Positions 2,976 through 19,162 of a DNA stretch of 26,013 nt are shown here, piece by piece. The position numbers and the translations under genes are program-made. Where the stretch lies: IMG/VR virus record IMGVR_UViG_3300044712_000543, positions 1 through 26,013 of that record. One strand, given 5' to 3'. Source of the DNA: a virus. Positions within the stretch are counted from its first letter, which is position 1; each line of letters opens with the position of its first letter. Below the pieces are notes generated by a model, which saw only the letters and a program-made list of their open reading frames with translations, searched no databases and was not told where the DNA came from.

Positions 2976-3533
2976 TTATGCCATTGGTGATAAACAACGT
3001 AAAGGATGATTCTTTGACTTCCATTTTGCGGAAAGCATGAACTTAGCAACTTCTTCCCTGCTCTTTGGAATTGGAGCATCCATATTAAATACTGCTTCTA
3101 TGCCAGTGTTACCACCGTAAAGCATTCCGTCTGAAGTCTCATACCAGAACTTGAACTTTAAGTTACATTCCGTAGAAAGTAGAAACTCATAGTTCGTGTC
3201 GTTGGTTTCATCAACTTCAAATAACATATTAAAGGTTTTTGGAGAATAAATTGTACGTCCGCCAGAAATCTGAAGTTCACCTTTCTCCGGAACCGGAAGC
3301 TCCCCAATACCTATTAGTGTACGGATTTTATCAGCCGCTGTACTGGAATCTGATAGTCTTGCCGTCCACTCAGTAATTATATCTACATTCGTAAAGGATG
3401 TAGCATCTGCCTTCGTCACGTAAACTTTAGAAATCTCCCCATAATGAATATCGGGAGAACATTCGTTAAAGCTCACTGCCTCCAATGATCCCGCGCAATC
3501 AACAGGACACGGACTCAAAGATAATACACTCAT
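2976..3533 (-). CDS. Candidate major tail (tube) protein
   Basis: The 185-residue protein has a Cys-rich N-terminus (SPCPVDCAGS, NECSPD) followed by a beta-rich body. The body holds EISKVYVTKADATSF, ITEWTARLSDSS, ELPVPEKGELQISGG, the central VDETNDTNYEF, ECNLKFKFWYE and a C-terminal PKSREEVAKFML. I place it with tail-tube/major-tail proteins of Bacteroidota siphoviruses from this overall pattern, its size and its separate control. It is the first gene after a 75-nt gap holding a good -7 box. No other protein in the window fits the tube better. Against this, tube genes normally precede the chaperones and tape measure, whereas this one follows the tail-tip genes. A tail-tip or decoration protein is the alternative. 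Confidence 0.55.
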   Translation of the reverse strand: MSVLSLSPCPVDCAGSLEAVSFNECSPDIHYGEISKVYVTKADATSFTNVDIITEWTARLSDSSTAADKIRTLIGIGELPVPEKGELQISGGRTIYSPKTFNMLFEVDETNDTNYEFLLSTECNLKFKFWYETSDGMLYGGNTGIEAVFNMDAPIPKSREEVAKFMLSAKWKSKNHPLRCLSPMA

Positions 3534-3608
3534 TTTTTTCTCTCATTTAAATTAATACTCCAAAATTAGTTATACTTTATTTAGTCTAAATAATCATAAT
3601 GATACAAA
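3534..3608 (-). promoter_or_regulatory. Putative promoter/control region before the candidate tail-tube gene
   Basis: This 75-nt AT-rich gap carries TAATTTTG (3561-3568 on the minus strand), an exact match to the Bacteroidota -7 consensus TAnnTTTG, about 28 nt before the ATG at 3533. The matching -33 element is weak: TTTA at 3587-3590, spacer 18 nt. Upstream is a 7-1-7 palindrome, TATTTAGTCTAAATA on the plus strand (3578-3592), overlapping by two bases the shared element at 3591-3607. No terminator-type U-tract is seen. A promoter raising expression of the downstream gene is the simplest reading. Confidence 0.45.
3591..3607. repeat. Copy 1 of a 17-nt intergenic element (TAATCATAATGATACAA)
   Basis: This element differs from the copy at 12823-12839 only at the centre base (A here, T there). 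It contains the odd palindrome ATCATAATGAT (3593-3603). It sits one base beyond the stop codon of the second tail-tip gene, just as the other copy abuts the stop of the capsid gene. Flanking bases also match (CTTTATT and CTAAR on the left side of the plus strand). Such a spaced palindrome could be a DNA-protein operator or part of a phage promoter. Confidence 0.6.
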
Positions 3609-5558
3609 TTAAGTTACATTAGTACAACACCCCGACATTAAAGCCGTTTCATCATAATCAAAGGTTAAATCAATCTTTGCATAGTACTTATCTTCATGTA
3701 GCCACTCATGTTCTACTTCAAGATTATAAACAACGTTTGTGTCACCTACTAAATCTGTTAGAGAAATAGTGTCATGCAGTCTCATTCGATTGAAAACATC
3801 AACCATATAATCAGGCATCTCTTTTGTTCTGGCTAAATACTTCTTAACTTGTCTGCCGAATGTTCTGACAAACCGGCCTTCACCGTTCTTTTGCCCTTCT
3901 TCTTCTAAAGTAAACGAAGGTTCCATTGTCTCAGATTCAAACCATATAGTCTGGTTCATGTCGTACTGGTAAATAATATCCCCTAAGTCGCAAGTATTGG
4001 AATAGTTTATAGTTAAGTACTTACTTGAGTACGCACGAAAGAATAAAACATCTTCAATCCCGAAACTTGAATTAATAGTACTTGAGAGTCTTATTAAAGC
4101 TACATCTGAATTATCAGTTACAGTAATATCTATTTCGTTAGTTCCTTGCACTAAAGCATAAGTAGCCGACAAAGAAATAGAATTTTCACCTTCAAGCGTA
4201 AATGTCGGTAATTGTCCGGAAACTGTATTAAGTACACAATAGACTTTTATCACTTCGTCTTTTCGGACAGAGAAAGTATTACTATAAGCGTATTCACCCG
4301 CACCCGAAGTATTGATAGCTGAAGTAATATCAACCCCGTCAACCGTAAACGTATCATAAGTTTCAGTCTCCCATTCCGTAACTAAATTTGGATAAATACA
4401 CGTAGCCTGAAAGTAATCCGAATAATACAGATAAGAATTAACCGTTTCAAACCTTAGAAAATAAGTTCCTGCATCTAACATTTTACCTAACTCTCCAGAG
4501 TACTGAAAATACTCATTCGTTAAATCGGTGTGAAGAATTGGAACCGAAGAACGGTACATTGCTAAAAGAGTAATTGAGAAATTAGAAACGGTACCTGAGA
4601 TGTTATAAAGTTCTACCCTTGCGTGAGCTTTTGTAGTTGTAGCTTTAAGCGTTATATAATTATAACCCGCCGAGAGTGTAACAACATTTGAAAGAACTTC
4701 CCTGTCGTCGTCGTATTCTAAAATTGCAAACCTCGGAGCAGTACCTGATGTTAAAGTAAGATTACAGACAATATAAACTTCTTCCCCTGCTGTTATTCCT
4801 GAAGCCGTTATCTTAGCATCTCGGAACCAGTAACCCATATTAACACCGTTAGTAGTCTTTACCAGGTCTAACTTTCTCTGATCAGGATCCACAGATATAG
4901 TATCATAAGCAGACCAATTTGAGTCTGCTTGTTCATTGTAAGTTGCGTACATATCCGGCGACTTAAAGAAATACGGTAAAAAACTTCTATGAATAGCAAT
5001 ATTATAGATGTTAAAACTTGCATTACTCGCTGAAGTCTGAACTGTAAAATAAGCAGCAGCCTCAGTTACTAAGGGACGAAAATATAACCTATTAACCCCG
5101 GATTTTAATTGATAATACTCATAACTCCGAGCCGTTCCTGCTGCATTGGTCATTCTTATATAAGGATATTGACCTGAGACATAAGCTAAAGTAATATCCA
5201 CTATATAAAGTTCATCCGGAACTATACTCAAAGGACCAGCAAAGAATCCAATAGCATTATCGCCTCCGGTATTTACACAAGTAATATCAGTTGCACCGAT
5301 TGTAAAAGTATTGTACGTACTATTAAGTCCGGCAAAAGGAATTATATCAGTTAAGTCGCCGGTTTGATCAAATAATCGAATATCTTTTATTGCACCTGGA
5401 TCATCTGTCTCAACGTTCCACTGCATTGCAGGAAGTTTATGCCTCGGAGTCATAATAGGAACCGGGACATCCTGACCTACTTTATTAACTGTTGCTCTCT
5501 GATAGCATTGTTTAGAAATCCTATCATAAACCGGTAAAGAAGTGTATATTGTTTTCAT
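3609..5558 (-). CDS. Large tail-tip protein with three repeated beta modules
   Basis: This 649-residue protein starts at ATG 5558, sharing one base with the stop of the upstream tail-tip gene. The N-terminus (1 to about 75) and the C-terminus (about 515-649, with EGRFVRTFGRQVKKYLARTKEMPDY split across a turn) look like tail-tip framework. Between them lie three related modules of about 110 residues: 81-192 (begins TYNTFTIGATDIT, ends IAIHRS), 217-338 (AYDTISVDPD to LLAMYRS) and 400-512 (TYDTFTVDGVDIT to LFFRAYSS). Each has an internal SGQ/SGT-x-P motif and a hydrophobic edge strand, a pattern like carbohydrate-binding beta-sandwiches. The protein probably builds the tail tip and may touch host surface glycans. 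The C-terminus has a CC pair (GCCTNVT). Confidence 0.7.
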   Translation of the reverse strand: MKTIYTSLPVYDRISKQCYQRATVNKVGQDVPVPIMTPRHKLPAMQWNVETDDPGAIKDIRLFDQTGDLTDIIPFAGLNSTYNTFTIGATDITCVNTGGDNAIGFFAGPLSIVPDELYIVDITLAYVSGQYPYIRMTNAAGTARSYEYYQLKSGVNRLYFRPLVTEAAAYFTVQTSASNASFNIYNIAIHRSFLPYFFKSPDMYATYNEQADSNWSAYDTISVDPDQRKLDLVKTTNGVNMGYWFRDAKITASGITAGEEVYIVCNLTLTSGTAPRFAILEYDDDREVLSNVVTLSAGYNYITLKATTTKAHARVELYNISGTVSNFSITLLAMYRSSVPILHTDLTNEYFQYSGELGKMLDAGTYFLRFETVNSYLYYSDYFQATCIYPNLVTEWETETYDTFTVDGVDITSAINTSGAGEYAYSNTFSVRKDEVIKVYCVLNTVSGQLPTFTLEGENSISLSATYALVQGTNEIDITVTDNSDVALIRLSSTINSSFGIEDVLFFRAYSSKYLTINYSNTCDLGDIIYQYDMNQTIWFESETMEPSFTLEEEGQKNGEGRFVRTFGRQVKKYLARTKEMPDYMVDVFNRMRLHDTISLTDLVGDTNVVYNLEVEHEWLHEDKYYAKIDLTFDYDETALMSGCCTNVT

Positions 5559-7273
5559 TATGCGTAACTTTCACAATTTGCGTTTGGATAATATCTATAA
5601 ACCCATGTTCCTAAATCCGTAGTATCTAATTCTAAAACTATTTTATCACCTTCTGATAAACCTTTACAAACAGTATCGAGTGTAAATGTATCGGTAGTTG
5701 CACCTAAAGGAATAGTCCATGTCTCCCAATTACCAGTACAAGGAATAGTCCCAGTAATAACTTCCCTCACAAGAATATCCCGATCCTGATCCATTGCCTT
5801 AAAAAGTGTCGCTGTTAAAGAAACGCAATCTACTCCCTGTTCGATTATCATTCCTTCATCTTCTAATACTCCGGTATTCTCATTGTCAGCCGGACCATAT
5901 AAAAGAGTGAATTTCATCTCTCCGTTTGGATTAAGTTCAGCCTTTTCTACTGTTCCCTTTGCACCTGAAAACCAAGTTTCGCCTAATTCAGTAGTTACAT
6001 AATCATAAGAATCATAATTATCCGAAGGGCAAACAATGGCAAATATTTCCTGACGTTTAGTCTTTTGAGCCGTCCAGAAAGTAGTCTGAGCAGAGTTCAT
6101 CCGACCATCTATTAAAACCCTATTATGTCTGAAGTAATTATCTAAAAGGTTAGCACATGACAAGTGAGCATTAAGACTAAGCGTTCCTGTTAAAGCTCCG
6201 ATTGAGTATTTAACTTTATAATCAGCACCGTCCAAGTAATTACAAAGAATAACAAAGCCTTCATCTGAGATTGCATCAGGGAAATTAATAATATACTCTA
6301 AATCGGTAGTGACATTTAAACGAGTTTCTTTAATGTTCGTATCAGGATCAGTATTGACACATTCAGCATCATACATTATCACCGCTTGAACGAAATCACC
6401 CCAGTCACCTTCCATTGGATAGAACCTCTCCTGAAAAGGCATCTCCTCTTTTAAGTAGGTGTATTTATTTGAACCTTTGGAAATAGTCTGAGTCCTCAGA
6501 TCCATTCCAGCCACTGGAGGGAACCAACTGACGTGTTCAACATTTATCGTATCTGTCCCAGAATCGTAGTTCCATTGAACCTGAAACATTCCCCAGAGTA
6601 TTTCCATTAACTCATTCCAGCTCATCATAGCTGAATTGGCTGAGTCTGTTGCTGTTGGTCTTATAATGTCGGACTTCTGAGCAATAGTAAGATGAAGTGT
6701 CAAGTTATCATTGACAGTTGCCGGGTTAGTAGCATCAGTAAAGAAATTACTTGAAACCGTAACACCTGCTTTAATTTTATCAGCAAGAAACTCTAAAACA
6801 TTATCCGATCCGATCTTTGCTAACCATCGATTGTGAGTATAAGATATATCTAAAGCAGTAGGAATAAAAGCCGTTGTTGTTACCTCAGTAGGTGTATCAA
6901 GAATATTCCATTGAGTGTCTGCTTCTGCAAGTAGATCAACATAAGCATCATTCTCCTTTGGTGTGACCTCAAATGTACAGTTATCTAAATCGAATCTTCC
7001 GTCTGTTGTAGAAAAATAACCATCCCAATAATAGGCTCCGTTCTTTTCAATTAAGTAAGGTATTTTAGTACAAGGAAAGTCCACCTCAATAGCATACAAA
7101 AGGTCAAAATCATCAGCACCGTTATTATTGGTAAACATCAACGTTCCAGAAAACTTCTTCCGATAGAAAGCCCTCGTCTTATCCCTTTCGTCAATTAAAA
7201 GAGTTGAAAGGAAGTTCAAAGGGAATACTTCTACTGTCGAAGCTGATATAGTTAAGTAGTGCCTGTAACTCAT
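5558..7273 (-). CDS. Tail-tip / distal-tail-type protein
   Basis: The 571-residue protein follows the tape measure with a 4-nt overlap, the normal place for a distal tail or tail-tip hub protein. The N-terminal 110 residues alternate strands: FYRKKFSGTLMFTNN, ADDFDLLYAIEVDFPC, WDGYFSTTDGRFDLDNC and TFEVTPKENDAYVDLL. This is a pattern I associate with the start of Bacteroidota phage tail-tip proteins. The middle contains a helical part with MMSWNELMEILWGMFQVQW, and the rest is beta-rich. No lysin, peptidase or transmembrane segment is seen. It probably forms the hub that closes the tube and carries the large tip protein encoded next. Exact family (Dit or Tal-like) cannot be settled from reading. 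Confidence 0.65.
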   Translation of the reverse strand: MSYRHYLTISASTVEVFPLNFLSTLLIDERDKTRAFYRKKFSGTLMFTNNNGADDFDLLYAIEVDFPCTKIPYLIEKNGAYYWDGYFSTTDGRFDLDNCTFEVTPKENDAYVDLLAEADTQWNILDTPTEVTTTAFIPTALDISYTHNRWLAKIGSDNVLEFLADKIKAGVTVSSNFFTDATNPATVNDNLTLHLTIAQKSDIIRPTATDSANSAMMSWNELMEILWGMFQVQWNYDSGTDTINVEHVSWFPPVAGMDLRTQTISKGSNKYTYLKEEMPFQERFYPMEGDWGDFVQAVIMYDAECVNTDPDTNIKETRLNVTTDLEYIINFPDAISDEGFVILCNYLDGADYKVKYSIGALTGTLSLNAHLSCANLLDNYFRHNRVLIDGRMNSAQTTFWTAQKTKRQEIFAIVCPSDNYDSYDYVTTELGETWFSGAKGTVEKAELNPNGEMKFTLLYGPADNENTGVLEDEGMIIEQGVDCVSLTATLFKAMDQDRDILVREVITGTIPCTGNWETWTIPLGATTDTFTLDTVCKGLSEGDKIVLELDTTDLGTWVYRYYPNANCESYA

Positions 7274-9237
7274 CTTTTCTTTATTATCCTTGTACTATTG
7301 CCTTTTTTATAAATTGTCATATTTCCTAATATGGAAACTTCTTCTTTGTTGTTTAGTCTTTTAAGGTTTAAATTAACCTCATCCAGACGTTTATTCGAGC
7401 CTTCATTATCAATGACTATGTTATTAACTGAAGCCGGAGAAATCTTATTAAATGAATTGAAAATAGCTCTTTTGTCGTCCCTGTTTATTGCTTCTAAAAC
7501 TGAACGGAACTTATGAGCCGGTCCCCGACGAACAACAAACTCTCTTTCATGTACCAATCCTGCGACCCGTTCACCTGTCTTATCCCTTCGTCCACCTTCA
7601 CCGGTCCATCCTCCTGAAGCAAATCCGGCTTCCTCACTTTTAGACCTTGCAGAATTTACAATCGCAAACATTGCTGTTATTGCGCCAGCTGCGAGTGCTA
7701 AACCGATAGGTCCAAACTTAGTATAAGTCTTTATTAAGTTAGTCGCTGAAGTAAAGATATTAACACCCTGAGCAATATTCTCCATTGCTCTTTGTTTCTT
7801 TATCGCTTCTTCTTCTTCCCTTAAAGCCTTTTCTCTTTGTAGCTTTAATTCTGCAAGTTGTTTCTGTTTAGCTTGTACGTTAGCAGCGTAACCGGCTTTA
7901 TAAAGTTCTACTTCTTGGTTTACTGCTTCCTGAGTTTCATCAATCTGAGTGTCTAAAAGTTCTCTATTGCGTTGTGCATCTTCCAGTTGTCGGTCTGCTA
8001 TTTCCTGAGTGAAAGCAAGTAATTCGTTTAGTCCTCTTTTAAGTGCTTCTACTCGGTTTTCTGTTAGCTCTTCTTCAAGTTTCAAAGCATCTTCACCGGC
8101 CTTTATTCGTGCTTCGTATTCTAATTTAGCTTGTTCTCTATTTGAGTTAAATAGTTTCTTACCGAGTTCAACTTCAAAAGCCCAATTCTTTTCTTTTTTC
8201 TCCTCAAGTGCTTTAAAATAATCTTCATCTAACTTATTAAGAAAGTCATTAACTGTTGAAAGATCATCAATAGTTGCCTGAGTGCGTTTTTTATCTCTCT
8301 CAATATCTATTTCAATTTGCTCGTCTGCTAACTTATTTAAATCATCATGTAGTTTCTCTCTCCATTCACGTTCCTTTACTATTCCCTCTTGCAAAAGTCC
8401 TGTACGCATAGACTCAATTCTCTTAACACCTGCAAAGCGTTCTGACTCTAATTCTAATAGCTTAACATTAAGTTGACCGTATTTCTGTTTTAAATCTTCA
8501 TCACCTGGTTGAGCATTTAATAAGTCAGTAGTAGCTTTTAATTCTTCCCTTGTGTTGGCAATCTCTATTTCAATCATCTTATTGTGAGCTGCCATTGCAA
8601 CATCCAATTTCTTAATCCTTTCTGCATCTGTCAAACGCCTGTCTGAAGCATCAAAATAAGCCTTATTAAAAAGAACTTGCTGTTGTCTTGCTTTAAAAGT
8701 ATCTATAATATCTTTTACCCTTAACTCATTTAGCTTTTGTTGTGCCGCGATAGCTTGTCCTAATCCAGCCGTTAAAGATTGCGCACCGGTAACGAGGTTG
8801 TAAAGAACTTGTTTAGTTGCTGCACCTGCAATATTAAAAGCATTTATACCAACTGTTGTCGCTAAGAAAGCCTCTTTTAAAACATTTAAAACAGTAGCAG
8901 CACCACCAATACTAAGTGCCATTTTACCGATAGTCTTACTTATTGAGTCGGTTTGCTCTTCTGCTTTTAGACCTGCTTTATTATATTCATCAAGTGCCTG
9001 TTTTGCTTCTGCTATCTTCTTATTGTACTTTTCGATATGCTCGATAGTCATTGCGTTCTTTTGCGCCGTCTGTAACTTGGAAAGTTCTTTTTCAACATCA
9101 GCAATAAGTCCTATCTGCCGCTTCTGGTTTTTCTCTTGGTTAGTATATAGCTTTTGTGATTCGGCACTAACTTCTTTAATACCTTTAACAGCATCCTTAT
9201 TATCAGCAACAAGTTTAAGTTCTACTTCTGTTGGCAT
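7270..9237 (-). CDS. Tail tape measure protein
   Basis: The 655-residue protein sets tail length and probably helps DNA entry. It is rich in long coiled-coil helices (roughly 15-90 and 280-490, many EEL/KKL repeats). It has a hydrophobic segment near 105-165 (SIGGAATVLNVL and onward) and another near 495-530 (FGPIGLALAAGAITAMFAIV). Residues 538-570 carry the typical tape-measure C-terminal motif: GFASGGWTGEGG, then AGLVHEREFVV. At about 0.15 nm per residue the tail would be near 100 nm. The start at 9237 overlaps the end of the frameshifted chaperone ORF by 23 nt. The order chaperone, tape measure, tail tip is that of siphoviruses. No peptidase or lysozyme insert was seen. Confidence 0.9.
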   Translation of the reverse strand: MPTEVELKLVADNKDAVKGIKEVSAESQKLYTNQEKNQKRQIGLIADVEKELSKLQTAQKNAMTIEHIEKYNKKIAEAKQALDEYNKAGLKAEEQTDSISKTIGKMALSIGGAATVLNVLKEAFLATTVGINAFNIAGAATKQVLYNLVTGAQSLTAGLGQAIAAQQKLNELRVKDIIDTFKARQQQVLFNKAYFDASDRRLTDAERIKKLDVAMAAHNKMIEIEIANTREELKATTDLLNAQPGDEDLKQKYGQLNVKLLELESERFAGVKRIESMRTGLLQEGIVKEREWREKLHDDLNKLADEQIEIDIERDKKRTQATIDDLSTVNDFLNKLDEDYFKALEEKKEKNWAFEVELGKKLFNSNREQAKLEYEARIKAGEDALKLEEELTENRVEALKRGLNELLAFTQEIADRQLEDAQRNRELLDTQIDETQEAVNQEVELYKAGYAANVQAKQKQLAELKLQREKALREEEEAIKKQRAMENIAQGVNIFTSATNLIKTYTKFGPIGLALAAGAITAMFAIVNSARSKSEEAGFASGGWTGEGGRRDKTGERVAGLVHEREFVVRRGPAHKFRSVLEAINRDDKRAIFNSFNKISPASVNNIVIDNEGSNKRLDEVNLNLKRLNNKEEVSILGNMTIYKKGNSTRIIKKR

Positions 9238-9487: not shown

Positions 9488-9879
9488 AAAAAACTGTTCA
9501 CCTCTATTTCCTTTCCCCAGCTATCAATTTTAGCCTGCATAAGTCCTTTACTGTAAACCGTCGGATCTTCACCTTCTTCATTAATAAACAAAGCGCAAAG
9601 CCTTAACGCTGCATCATCTTTATCTTCCAGGTTCTTTATGCCTTCCTGAATCTTATAGATAATAATAGACATATTAAAATAGTCATGCTTATTATAGGAA
9701 TCAACGGCTGATTTAAGGTTATTGAATATGTCCTCAAACGTTGCAGAAAACCCAAACTCTAACATGATCTTCTGCATCTCTTTGTAACGAGCAAAAGATA
9801 AGGACTCGCTTATCTCAAATCTTTTACCGTCACAATCAAAATATTTCTCTTTATTAAAATCAATTTTTCTGAGCTTCAT
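9394..9879 (-). CDS. Tail assembly chaperone G
   Basis: The 161-residue protein is the zero-frame product of the tail chaperone gene. It begins MKLRKIDFNKEKYFDCDGKRFEI and is largely helical. Chaperones of this type coat the tape measure while the tail forms. Position directly before the tape measure, size, and the slip site at codons 129-131 (AGT TTT TTT) support the call. About 30 residues follow the slip site in the zero frame, ending KVEKEKEG. The start overlaps the membrane-protein gene by 20 nt. Primary sequence alone gives only moderate support, since this family diverges quickly. The frameshift arrangement is the strong evidence. Confidence 0.8.
   Translation of the reverse strand: MKLRKIDFNKEKYFDCDGKRFEISESLSFARYKEMQKIMLEFGFSATFEDIFNNLKSAVDSYNKHDYFNMSIIIYKIQEGIKNLEDKDDAALRLCALFINEEGEDPTVYSKGLMQAKIDSWGKEIEVNSFFYLAASLVPGWMPAYELITRIGSKVEKEKEG
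9487..9493 (-). other. Programmed -1 ribosomal frameshift site (T_TTT_TTT)
   Basis: On the minus strand the bases read AG TTTTTTTT AC TTA, the T8 run lying at 9486-9493. In the zero frame this is AGT TTT TTT TAC, so T_TTT_TTT fits the X_XXY_YYZ rule with both tRNAs able to re-pair after slipping back one base. The new frame reads TTA CTT AGC GGC and stays open to 9215. The site lies between a tail chaperone gene and the tape measure, where such shifts are conserved in siphoviruses. Confidence 0.8.
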
Positions 9880-10144
9880 ATAACTTGTTTAAAATGGTGG
9901 CAAAAAGGATCCCCATTGCAGGGTAAAATAACTGATCAATTAAATTATAGTCTTTTAAGTGTGTTATCCAATAATAGTGAAAGAGGGCCTGGCCTGTCAA
10001 ACATATCACACAGCGACCTAAAGGTTTTCCCAACCAAGACGGCAGGCCCTCAATCCACCTAAACCAAAAGTTAAATATCATTCCTGGTTCTCCTAAAAGC
10101 CAGAAAACGAAACAAATCACCGTTATTTTTACAATGTCAATCAT
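9860..10144 (-). CDS. Small membrane protein in the tail block
   Basis: The 94-residue protein has a hydrophobic N-terminal segment (about 4-17, IVKITVICFVFWLL) and a second near 70-84 (LFYPAMGILFATIL). Between them is an aromatic stretch with WFRWIEGLPSWLGKPLG followed by a CVIC pair and TGQ. The CxxC flanked by a Gly/Pro loop recalls small membrane proteins of the DUF1360 type, found in many phage tail regions, with no proven function. It overlaps its upstream and downstream genes by 4 and 20 nt. It is not an obvious holin: only two membrane segments, and no charged C-terminal tail beyond NKLYEAQKN. A role in host membrane interaction or superinfection exclusion would be a guess. Confidence 0.65.
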   Translation of the reverse strand: MIDIVKITVICFVFWLLGEPGMIFNFWFRWIEGLPSWLGKPLGRCVICLTGQALFHYYWITHLKDYNLIDQLFYPAMGILFATILNKLYEAQKN

Positions 10145-11238
10145 ACTATTAGTTCATCACAAAGTTTGGCAGCACTTGTTATGTGTCCTACCTGATTGAT
10201 TATTGCAGTAGTATTATTCTGACTTTCCGATTCAGAATATTGTCCTGGAGAAACCAAACCAACTGCAACATCTATTACATTACTCCATTGCGCAGCCGAA
10301 GATTGATCAGAAGGAGCAGATTCATAATAAGTAAAATTGCTTCCATTGTCTATCACAAGACAAATTAATCCTCCTGCCGGACCTTGATCTCTTAAAGCAT
10401 AAACATCAGTAGTTGTAAATGATCTACAAGCCCGCACACGTGCAGGAACTGATTTTAAAATAGCAGCACCACTACCATCAGCAAAGTTTACAGCCCAATT
10501 CTGAAAAGCACCTAATTCTACTGATGTTTGATAATAGTCATTTGCAAATCCACCTACTCCAAATTCTTTTACATTCTCCCACATATAAGAAACAAGATCA
10601 GCAGAAGGAAGGAACCAGTCATTATACTGAACATCCGGAACTACATAAGGAGCTTTAACACAAGGAACGACAAAAGAAATCGTAAGATCAAGCGCAAAGT
10701 AGTCAAACGGGAACATCAGATACTGAGTAGCCACTTCATTATACGAATACTTTGAGAAAATAGAAACATCTCGTTCAGCTTGTGATATTCCCGTTATTTG
10801 AATTGATATAAAATCATCAGTCTGAATTGGTGAAGTAGGTAAAGACTTAATAACATCAATAACATAGTCGCCTGTTGAACCGCATCCTATTGTATCAGGA
10901 TCGCAAATACCACCCTGAATTAAAGAATGATTTAACCAACAAACGAGTCTTAAAGTAGAATCAAACTTTAACCTATTACCTATTTTTTCAACAAAACTAA
11001 CCCCTTTATCTTCAAAGTAAATAACTGACTTCTTCTTTGAGTCCGGAGCCAAATCTTGATAGGCTCCCTTTATACAAGCATCTGCTGATATGTCACATGA
11101 AACCGGATAAGACTTATCTGATACATCTTCACCGTTCTTAACTCTTATGTTAGCTGTCTGAACAAGTCCGGCAATCTTATCCGACCATTCCAGATCATCA
11201 ACGTAACTTTTAATCAGGTTAGCAATCTTATTATTCAT
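10141..11238 (-). CDS. Tail-terminator-like protein fused to a DUF1566/FISUMP-type lectin module
   Basis: The protein has 365 residues. Residues 1 to about 200 look like a tail terminator/tail completion domain: SVIYFEDKGV, STLRLVCWLNHSL, DVSIFSKYSYNEVATQYL and MFPFDYFALDL. The C-terminal 160 residues are the two halves of a DUF1566/FISUMP-type (C-type-lectin-like) domain. Residues 205-274 carry YNDWFLPSADLVSYM, GVGGFANDYY, NWAVNFADGSG and RVRACRSF. Residues 280-365 carry YALRDQGPAGGL, YYESAPSDQSSAAQW and end AAKLCDELIV. In the usual family the GPAGG half comes first and its LCxDL end runs straight into the DWFLPS half. Here the order is reversed. The gene overlaps both neighbours by 4 nt. 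The module probably faces outward at the head-tail joint and may bind glycans. Confidence 0.6.
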   Translation of the reverse strand: MNNKIANLIKSYVDDLEWSDKIAGLVQTANIRVKNGEDVSDKSYPVSCDISADACIKGAYQDLAPDSKKKSVIYFEDKGVSFVEKIGNRLKFDSTLRLVCWLNHSLIQGGICDPDTIGCGSTGDYVIDVIKSLPTSPIQTDDFISIQITGISQAERDVSIFSKYSYNEVATQYLMFPFDYFALDLTISFVVPCVKAPYVVPDVQYNDWFLPSADLVSYMWENVKEFGVGGFANDYYQTSVELGAFQNWAVNFADGSGAAILKSVPARVRACRSFTTTDVYALRDQGPAGGLICLVIDNGSNFTYYESAPSDQSSAAQWSNVIDVAVGLVSPGQYSESESQNNTTAIINQVGHITSAAKLCDELIV

Positions 11239-11699
11239 AATAACTTATTCTTACGAAATATATTTAATATGCCTTGTTCGTAAATATGAACTAACTTTCC
11301 CTTTTCATCTTGATTCAGTGCTAAAATATCCCCTCGTCTTGCGGTGTTCTTACTTAACTTCTCTTTTTCGAGCGGTGTAGTTGCTTTAATAACTGCTATG
11401 CCTAACTCTAATTCGTCCTTTGGAGAAACTAATTTAATACTGCGCCACATCTGATTCGAAAATGAAAAGTCAACAAAGCCCCTATATTTTCCTTCTTTTT
11501 TCTTATACTCTAAATAACTCTTTGAATACGGTGAATACTTTTGGCCTTCCGGATTTAACCCTTTCTCCTGTACTCTCTCTTTAACCATTTCAATAGCTGC
11601 TGATCCTACTTGACTCATAACAGTTCCATGCGCACCCGACTGAAGGTCTTTAATAACACCGTCTAACCTCTTATTGTATTCAAGTATAGTTATTGCCAT
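11235..11699 (-). CDS. Phage virion morphogenesis / tail completion protein
   Basis: The protein has 154 residues. After an N-terminal helix (LEYNKRLDGVIKDLQSG) comes a stretch typical of gpS/HK97-gp10-like completion proteins: a helix with VKERVQEKGLNPEGQKYSPYSKSYLEYKK broken by the NPEG turn, FVDFSFSNQMWRSI, then GIAVIKATTPLEKEKL. The last third (ARRGDILALNQDEKG, LVHIYEQGILNIFRKN) resembles the family's metal-free barrel end. Such proteins finish the neck or the tail end so that head and tail can join. Its place between connector and tail terminator agrees. Start shares a base with the upstream stop (11699). Confidence 0.7.
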   Translation of the reverse strand: MAITILEYNKRLDGVIKDLQSGAHGTVMSQVGSAAIEMVKERVQEKGLNPEGQKYSPYSKSYLEYKKKEGKYRGFVDFSFSNQMWRSIKLVSPKDELELGIAVIKATTPLEKEKLSKNTARRGDILALNQDEKGKLVHIYEQGILNIFRKNKLL

Positions 11700-18369: not shown

Positions 18370-18584
18370 TTCAATAATGATTCAAATATTTCCAAGTTTC
18401 TTTTAGTATTCCGACAAACAAAGCTACAATATCCAACATAAAACGTTATATTCTGAGATTCTGAGTCAGTCCAATATCCTACAAAAGCAGAATCTTTAAA
18501 TCTAAAAGGAATATAAGTTGCACTCTGATCAACTCCCAATTCTTCTAACTGAGTGTTTATAATTTCTATTTTTATCTCTGTCAT
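18366..18584 (-). CDS. Small protein, unknown
   Basis: The 72-residue protein lies between the DUF5131-like gene and the first glycosyltransferase, overlapping each by 4 nt. It looks beta-rich (SATYIPFRFKDSAFVGYW, SQNITFYVGYCSFVC) with a short helix at the end (NLEIFESLLK). No signal peptide or membrane segment is seen. The family is not recognised. Its tight coupling suggests a link to the enzymes on either side, but nothing in the sequence shows what kind. Confidence 0.6.
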   Translation of the reverse strand: MTEIKIEIINTQLEELGVDQSATYIPFRFKDSAFVGYWTDSESQNITFYVGYCSFVCRNTKRNLEIFESLLK

Positions 18585-19162
18585 TTTAAATAGCCTCTTA
18601 CGTTAGGTTTATAAAATATATTATCGTGTTTAATAGAATTAATCCAATCAGCGTTAGGCTTCTTACCTACATACATCAAAGCCCCGACAACAACTAACTC
18701 AAATTGACTAAAGTCATAACCTCTAAAGGAACCAAGTAACGGCTCTATTGAAGCCATTTGCCTTGTCGGCAATCCTTTCATTATATGCGCCCCGTTCCAT
18801 TGTTCAGGTGACTCTATTGTAACACCTAAAACACAATTAGCAGGCCAGTCATATTTAAAATAGTTTATAGGATTCTTTGTTATGAAGATAAACTCACTCT
18901 TTGGCAAAGACTTACATTCATTAATGATTGCCTCAACCCATTCTTTAGGGATAAAGTCACCCATAAGATCAGTATAATGAGTAACGAATATCTTTGCCGG
19001 ACCAACTAACGAAGGTTCAATAAGCCTTTCTTCATAGAACTTTGGAGTAAACGGCTTTCCTTTTTCATGGAAGTCTTTTGAGGCATAACAGTAGTCACAC
19101 CCATGAAGACAACCCTCAACAGGATTCCAAGCCCAATCATAAAAGCCTACTGATCGCATCAT
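18581..19162 (-). CDS. DUF5131 / phage Gp37-Gp68-like radical-SAM-type protein
   Basis: The 193-residue protein has the family opening WAWNPVEGCLHGCDYCYASK. Cysteines 18, 22 and 25 give CxxxCxxC, the iron-sulfur motif of radical SAM enzymes. Later motifs also fit: IFVTHYTDLMGDFIP, EFIFITKNP, LGVTIESPEQWNG, and SIEPLLGSF. The family is common in phages and prophages but has no established reaction. At 193 residues the protein is short, so the TIM-barrel is probably partial. It overlaps the portal gene by 4 nt (ATGATG start; M1 or M2 possible). No TcmP-type partner lies beside it, unlike some bacterial relatives. Confidence 0.8.
   Translation of the reverse strand: MMRSVGFYDWAWNPVEGCLHGCDYCYASKDFHEKGKPFTPKFYEERLIEPSLVGPAKIFVTHYTDLMGDFIPKEWVEAIINECKSLPKSEFIFITKNPINYFKYDWPANCVLGVTIESPEQWNGAHIMKGLPTRQMASIEPLLGSFRGYDFSQFELVVVGALMYVGKKPNADWINSIKHDNIFYKPNVRGYLK

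Follow-up and report, generated by a model that had tools for sequence, protein, structure and literature searches.

A circularly permuted Lcl_C/DUF1566 lectin-like module on a predicted phage tail terminator and its recurrence in phage structural proteins

The 26,013-nucleotide stretch of viral DNA analysed here (IMG/VR record IMGVR_UViG_3300044712_000543; "the window") encodes a predicted tail terminator—the ring that caps the tail—extended at its C-terminus by a putative C-type-lectin-like domain of the Lcl_C/DUF1566 type whose two halves stand in swapped order. Models and sequence comparisons support reading this extension as a circularly permuted domain, and we consider it highly probable that the wider account holds, i.e., a permuted lectin-like module on a tail terminator, with a proposed binding face and a cassette-like spread between structural genes. 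The anatomical case is strong, and we infer the binding function from sequence comparison. Circular permutation is seldom seen in natural proteins, and its use in a travelling insertion module would be rarer still.

The gene, its carrier domain and its neighbours

The module gene (10141-11238, minus strand, 365 aa; the plus strand has no open reading there) lies inside the phage structural cluster of the record, which is probably a 26 kb virus fragment. Upstream is a neck/tail-completion-like gene (11235..11699, minus strand; profile matches to Phage_tail_S and phrog_6195) and downstream a gene for a small protein with a CxxC motif (9860..10144, minus strand), whose start overlaps the stop of the module gene (ATGA). 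A similar gene comes next after the module gene in L091 and, in L001 and L002, after that for the terminator. The tape measure gene (7270..9237, minus strand; phrog_20660, 2e-8) follows two small genes beyond the module gene, and the order in which the latter stands between neck/tail-completion and tape measure genes is repeated in L001 and L002.

Residues 1-193 (10660..11238, minus strand) form the carrier domain, which is mostly at pLDDT >90 in the full-length AlphaFold2 model. A structure search with these residues returned T5 p142 (Z 10.3 over 132 residues) and lambda gpU (Z 9.6), and as the top matches were nearly all tail terminators, we take the terminator label to be correct; the domain also matches phrog_8145 (PHROGs). 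The predicted gpU/p142-type fold and the gene order thus agree in supporting the tail-terminator-like identity that the original prediction had proposed. The window protein has both fold and gene position in common with T5 p142 and lambda gpU and differs from them by ~170 extra residues, the lectin-like module. About 17 terminator relatives stop after the carrier domain and have no module. Among terminator relatives, the module was found only in the window and in L153/L215, with an FN3 domain between terminator and module in L153, and the terminators of L216, L218 and L220, 66-69% identical to that of L153, are without it.

Elsewhere in the window, enzymes, some of them sugar-related, are encoded among the phage genes (16476-18369 and 23038-25642): an NAD-dependent epimerase, two glycosyltransferases of the GT2 type and a radical SAM protein with B12 binding, together with a weak cytosine methylase match. 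A DUF5131 protein (18581-19162) has the structural genes on one side and the glycosyltransferases on the other.

The swapped halves of the module

Downstream of the carrier domain, a probably flexible linker (residues 194-204; 10627..10659, minus strand; the full-length model has pLDDT <50 for 195-204) leads into the module, all of which is on the minus strand. The first part of the module (DWFLPS...RVRACRSF, residues 205-274; 10417..10626) corresponds to the second half of a normal Lcl_C domain. It is followed by a new connector that bridges the former C- and N-termini (residues 275-279; 10402..10416), placed by alignment of the permuted modules, and then by the normal first half (YALRDQGPAGG...SAAKLCDELIV, residues 280-365; 10144..10401), which runs up to the stop codon. 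These are the two halves that were first noted from the sequence.

Their order was compared with that in a normal-order protein from an Atribacteria bin (L110). BLASTP aligned window residues 280-365 to L110 290-373 (54% identity, E 3e-22) and residues 205-274 to L110 376-446 (46% identity, E 1e-10), i.e., as two blocks in reverse order that leave only 2 residues, at the joint, between them in L110. Profiles of each half, built from all permuted modules, behaved consistently across 92 normal-order copies: the GPAGG-half profile matched upstream of DWFLPS in 81, the DWFLPS-half profile matched downstream of the joint in all 92, and neither matched on the wrong side of the joint or in shuffled sequences. 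The swapped order is thus borne out, as is the position of the break, precisely at the joint.

The second-half motif of Lcl_C (DWxLPS...VRAxRxF) is present in the window module. The first-half GPAGG sub-domain, however, sits C-terminal of that second half rather than directly N-terminal, and we therefore file the module as a circularly permuted Lcl_C/DUF1566 relative, not as an ordinary member. Pfam gave no useful match to the whole window protein or to either half, and PHROGs found only the DWFLPS half of the module (phrog_4245, 6e-9). Pfam Lcl_C/DUF1566 (PF07603) matches 26 of 32 permuted modules at E <=0.01, the window module not among them. Standard profiles can thus miss permuted domains, Pfam being blind to the window protein and seeing only the second half in most relatives. 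The Fib_succ_major (FISUMP, PF09603) profile had no match in the window record; of the combined DUF1566/FISUMP label given originally, the DUF1566 part is retained as Lcl_C/DUF1566, whereas the FISUMP part is dropped, PF09603 being a different domain.

A model of the module by itself, made from an alignment with 31 relatives, is a confident one (pLDDT 93, pTM 0.88) and predicts that both halves pack into a single compact domain; in the full-length model, with few module rows in the alignment, the module is at low confidence. Over 71 residues, its DWFLPS half can be superposed at an rmsd of 2.0 on the C-terminal domain of Legionella Lcl (Lcl-CTD, 8q4e), and sequential structure aligners match only one half to 8q4e, as expected of a circular permutation. 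A search of solved structures with the permuted profile gave 8q4e (E 4e-13), matched as two segments whose order is exchanged (profile 1-70 to 8q4e 98-165 and profile 86-116 to 8q4e 51-83, the latter segment weak alone), and no solved structure had both halves in the permuted order. A viral structure library returned only half-domain matches, normal DUF1566 proteins among them. On the structural comparison that had been proposed as a check, the module is a putative C-type-lectin-like domain, matched over one half.

The original prediction had left the choice between a circular permutation and a cut tandem pair. Were the halves remnants of such a pair, they might complete each other between ring subunits by domain swapping and act as a clasp or an assembly aid. 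Arrays with permuted ends do exist (the nested modules of L095, L104 and L169, below), and Lcl-CTD is trimeric, with subunit contacts mostly in the DUF1566 part (PMC11162425). Yet a single chain is predicted to be compact, and single modules also occur in the loops of other domains, where swapping would need matched neighbours. We regard domain swapping as decidedly unlikely. The compact single-domain prediction, together with an identical cut fixed in 35 relatives, favours permutation over a cut tandem pair, and the window module is best supported as a circularly permuted Lcl_C/DUF1566 C-type-lectin-like domain.

Recurrence, insertion places and spread

Successive scans, which used first the DWFLPS half, next the permuted modules and last two DNA patterns, collected at least 35 distinct permuted modules from ~30 phage records, nearly all of which start with (F/Y)(N/D)DWFLPS and end with SAAKLC(N/D)DL. 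The suggestion that the arrangement might recur in related phages therefore proved right, and it extends well beyond the neck gene. The window comes from a metagenomic record, for which misassembly is always possible, but a chimeric assembly, a frameshift or a chance resemblance is refuted by the family itself, since ~30 records that come from many metagenomes, and from two Bacteroidota bins, have the same order and ends; we assign these explanations a negligible probability.

Across the whole family the permuted order is rare: in a search with the DWFLPS half alone, it was found at one of the best 80 loci. Since normal order is widespread in bacteria, we take the permuted order to be derived. 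The original claim of a rearrangement was said to fall if the family commonly occurred in this order; the swapped order is common in one derived branch only, the rest of the family being in normal order. On trees, the order labels need 3 changes versus 19.3 when shuffled, and an AU test did not reject a single permuted clade (p 0.69), which fits—without proving—a single permutation event, and one such event probably lies behind all permuted modules. In free trees the permuted group was not an exact clade, and exact monophyly was neither shown nor rejected.

Two of the permuted loci are in Bacteroidota genome bins (L111 and L113). For isolated phages, no permuted module was found among 50,697 phage records, and plasmids gave one match to the DWFLPS half, in normal order. 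A close-relative scan with the window module alone gave no match, and alignments were needed; genome contigs scanned with an alignment also gave none. The YxLRDxGPAGG pattern had 9 matches in genome contigs, only two of them (the Bacteroidota bins) permuted, and as normal-order relatives begin with YxLRDxGPAGG too, this connector was rejected as a marker of permutation.

The sequence before the module sorts into 19 clusters of places in at least 10 unrelated carriers; L137 and L150 represent the same FISUMP loop, so we count ~18 places. Modules stand after terminators, after the tail protein family of L091, L098, L138 and others, after members of a second carrier family (L090, twice; L104; L157) and after FN3 or propeller proteins (L023, L154). 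At least four FISUMP-domain loops also hold modules (L102/L136/L148/L174; L137/L150; L105; L155), with the Fib_succ_major match interrupted in L102 (profile 1-41, gap, 31-187) and the domain likewise split in L105, L136, L148, L150 and L155. In L172 the module is inside a small protein, and in L113 it lies ~10 residues past the start of a tail protein, whose match to phrog_19846 starts, at profile position 10, directly after the module. L150 has a carrier ~85% identical to that of L105 but no module at the place where L105 has one; its own module sits elsewhere. Finally, a second permuted module may be nested within a first (L095:12556-13542; L104:2437-3864, the same as L111; L169:4389-5546), always just before the final SAAKLC helix, which leaves that helix twice at the protein C-terminus. 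These ~18 natural insertion sites, one with occupied and empty counterparts in near relatives, offer a way to ask which virion-protein loops tolerate a whole domain.

Two further observations were made on these loci. FISUMP itself seems circularly permuted, or in arrays with permuted ends, in L150:3957-6029 (profile order 60-187, then 1-47 to the stop) and L137:4134-8096 (where the array begins at profile 49), with the cut at another loop (YDND | YGLLYNWY). In L090:4550-6471, two adjoining genes each carry a permuted module, and the last ~100 bases of these modules are nearly identical while their variable parts differ, a pattern that fits local gene conversion.

As to how the form arose, the short connector would have linked the old domain ends, and the chain would have opened anew in the loop of a few residues between helix SAAKLCDDL and strand DWFLPS. 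As chain neighbours in the ancestor, the new ends should lie side by side, and with adjacent ends the module could be placed after a domain or in a surface loop without disturbing its carrier. Its movement from one structural gene to another, in the form of a coding cassette, would rest on ordinary recombination followed by selection, for which Ig-like domains are a precedent; this is the simplest account. Ig-like domains are reportedly promiscuous on tailed phages (Fraser et al. 2006, as cited in PMC6199706). They are accessory, sporadic and appended to many different virion proteins. They have an unrelated fold and are not permuted, and the permuted module, unlike them, is also inserted within other lectin-type domains and within itself. 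It is also conceivable, if unlikely, that the coding cassette is actively exchanged, i.e., that Bacteroidota phages insert the module in frame into virion-protein loops and into itself, possibly by a dedicated recombination route, and thereby shift its variable binding face between sites on the virion.

Were the module carried by a dedicated mobile element, with in-frame insertion of coding cassettes into structural genes, this would account for ~18 places with fixed ends, for the three self-nested modules, all at one internal position, and for the two places in the homologous carriers L105 and L150. No target-site duplication was found, however, at 14 internal or nested insertions, where flank repeats average 7.4 nt against 7.0 nt expected. 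A 9-nt repeat at L105 (ACTCA[GC]TGG), considered as a target duplication, was within chance. The modules, moreover, average only 37-60% identity, depending on the region, which speaks against a recent burst, and a search for shared enzymes, covering reverse transcriptase only, found none in common. We therefore hold such an element to be very unlikely, and continue to favour ordinary recombination.

The variable face, its proposed function and known systems

Column entropies of the permuted modules mark residues 242-267 (10438..10515, minus strand), from the invariant SxE to the RACR motif, as hypervariable. Mean pairwise identity is 37% from residue 242 to the connector, against 55% in the earlier part of the DWFLPS half and 60% in the other half. 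This stretch aligns without gaps to Lcl 369-394, with the invariant E241 on Lcl E368, and the Lcl segment contains four lysines (K369, K380, K385 and K391) that have been tested for a part in glycosaminoglycan binding (PMC11162425). Together, the hypervariability and the alignment to the Lcl lysine stretch lead us to infer an exchangeable, putative binding module. The window module keeps none of the four lysines, so that the ligand of Lcl need not be shared; the binding face is probably common to both and the ligand different.

If the ring has six copies, six modules on flexible linkers would stand at the head-tail joint, where the hypervariable face may serve to bind surface ligands, glycans or others. 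With a lectin-type module carried on a tail terminator, binding of phages to surfaces or glycans may not be confined to the tail tip. The module could instead be cleaved off, or aid assembly without binding.

The window module and Legionella Lcl_C/DUF1566 (PF07603; 8q4e) have homologous halves and probably share a C-type-lectin-like fold. They differ in that the halves of the former are reversed, with new ends at the SAAKLC/DWFLPS joint, in the lack of all four heparin/chondroitin lysines and in the carrier, a tail terminator instead of a collagen stalk. FISUMP is likewise lectin-type and common in the same phage proteins; it is a separate family that hosts inserted permuted modules and is not carried by the window. 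Closer in setting are the DUF1566/C-type-lectin DGR targets of Bacteroides phages (Bacuni, PMC8143477; Hankyphage, PMC6199706; zeta crAss-like, PMC12386605), which are also lectin-type proteins of Bacteroidota phages with a variable face. Those targets are fibre or tail proteins accompanied by a reverse transcriptase, whereas modules of the window type are permuted, sit on many carriers and mostly lack one.

That the module is, or recently was, a DGR target would explain both variability and spread. In DUF1566 proteins targeted by DGRs, variation falls on this stretch (PMC8143477). In L110, a close normal-order relative, the variable stretch is rich in Asn (SENNANNAWNQNFNNGNQNNNNKNNNKR), and the gene overlaps a downstream frame that, by eye, resembles the start of a DGR reverse transcriptase (L110:2033-3394 and 3234-3872). 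A reverse transcriptase (L115) is also present in the record of L090, but this is the only one in 29 module-bearing records; it adjoins another lectin-type gene, of FGE type and ending GWRAVLRGGSAYHSS...GARLCYIP, lies ~26 kb from the modules and is likely part of a separate DGR. No reverse transcriptase was found in the 26 kb window, probably a fragment, and a repeat scan of 9800-11300 found no template-like repeat. A DGR, furthermore, rewrites a repeat and inserts no domains. We reject it as the general mover, given the single reverse transcriptase, and see only a very small chance that the module is or was a target; the reading as a permuted binding module spread by recombination is retained.

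The permuted form of a DUF1566/lectin domain is not described in the consulted portions of PMC8143477, PMC6199706, PMC12386605 and PMC11162425. A literature search outside subscription journals, and thus short of proof of novelty, found no paper that combines "circular permutation" and "DUF1566".

Normal-order DUF1566-like proteins are present in the Pseudomonas phages Cruim01 (L008) and Aurca01 (L005), and in Cruim01 a gene for a retron-type polymerase lies close by, as does an RNA feature with the annotation RT-15. At 876-1067 of the window, a small protein has C-terminal LINEDGSxLI repeat units, and like short repeats end proteins in L096 and L102.
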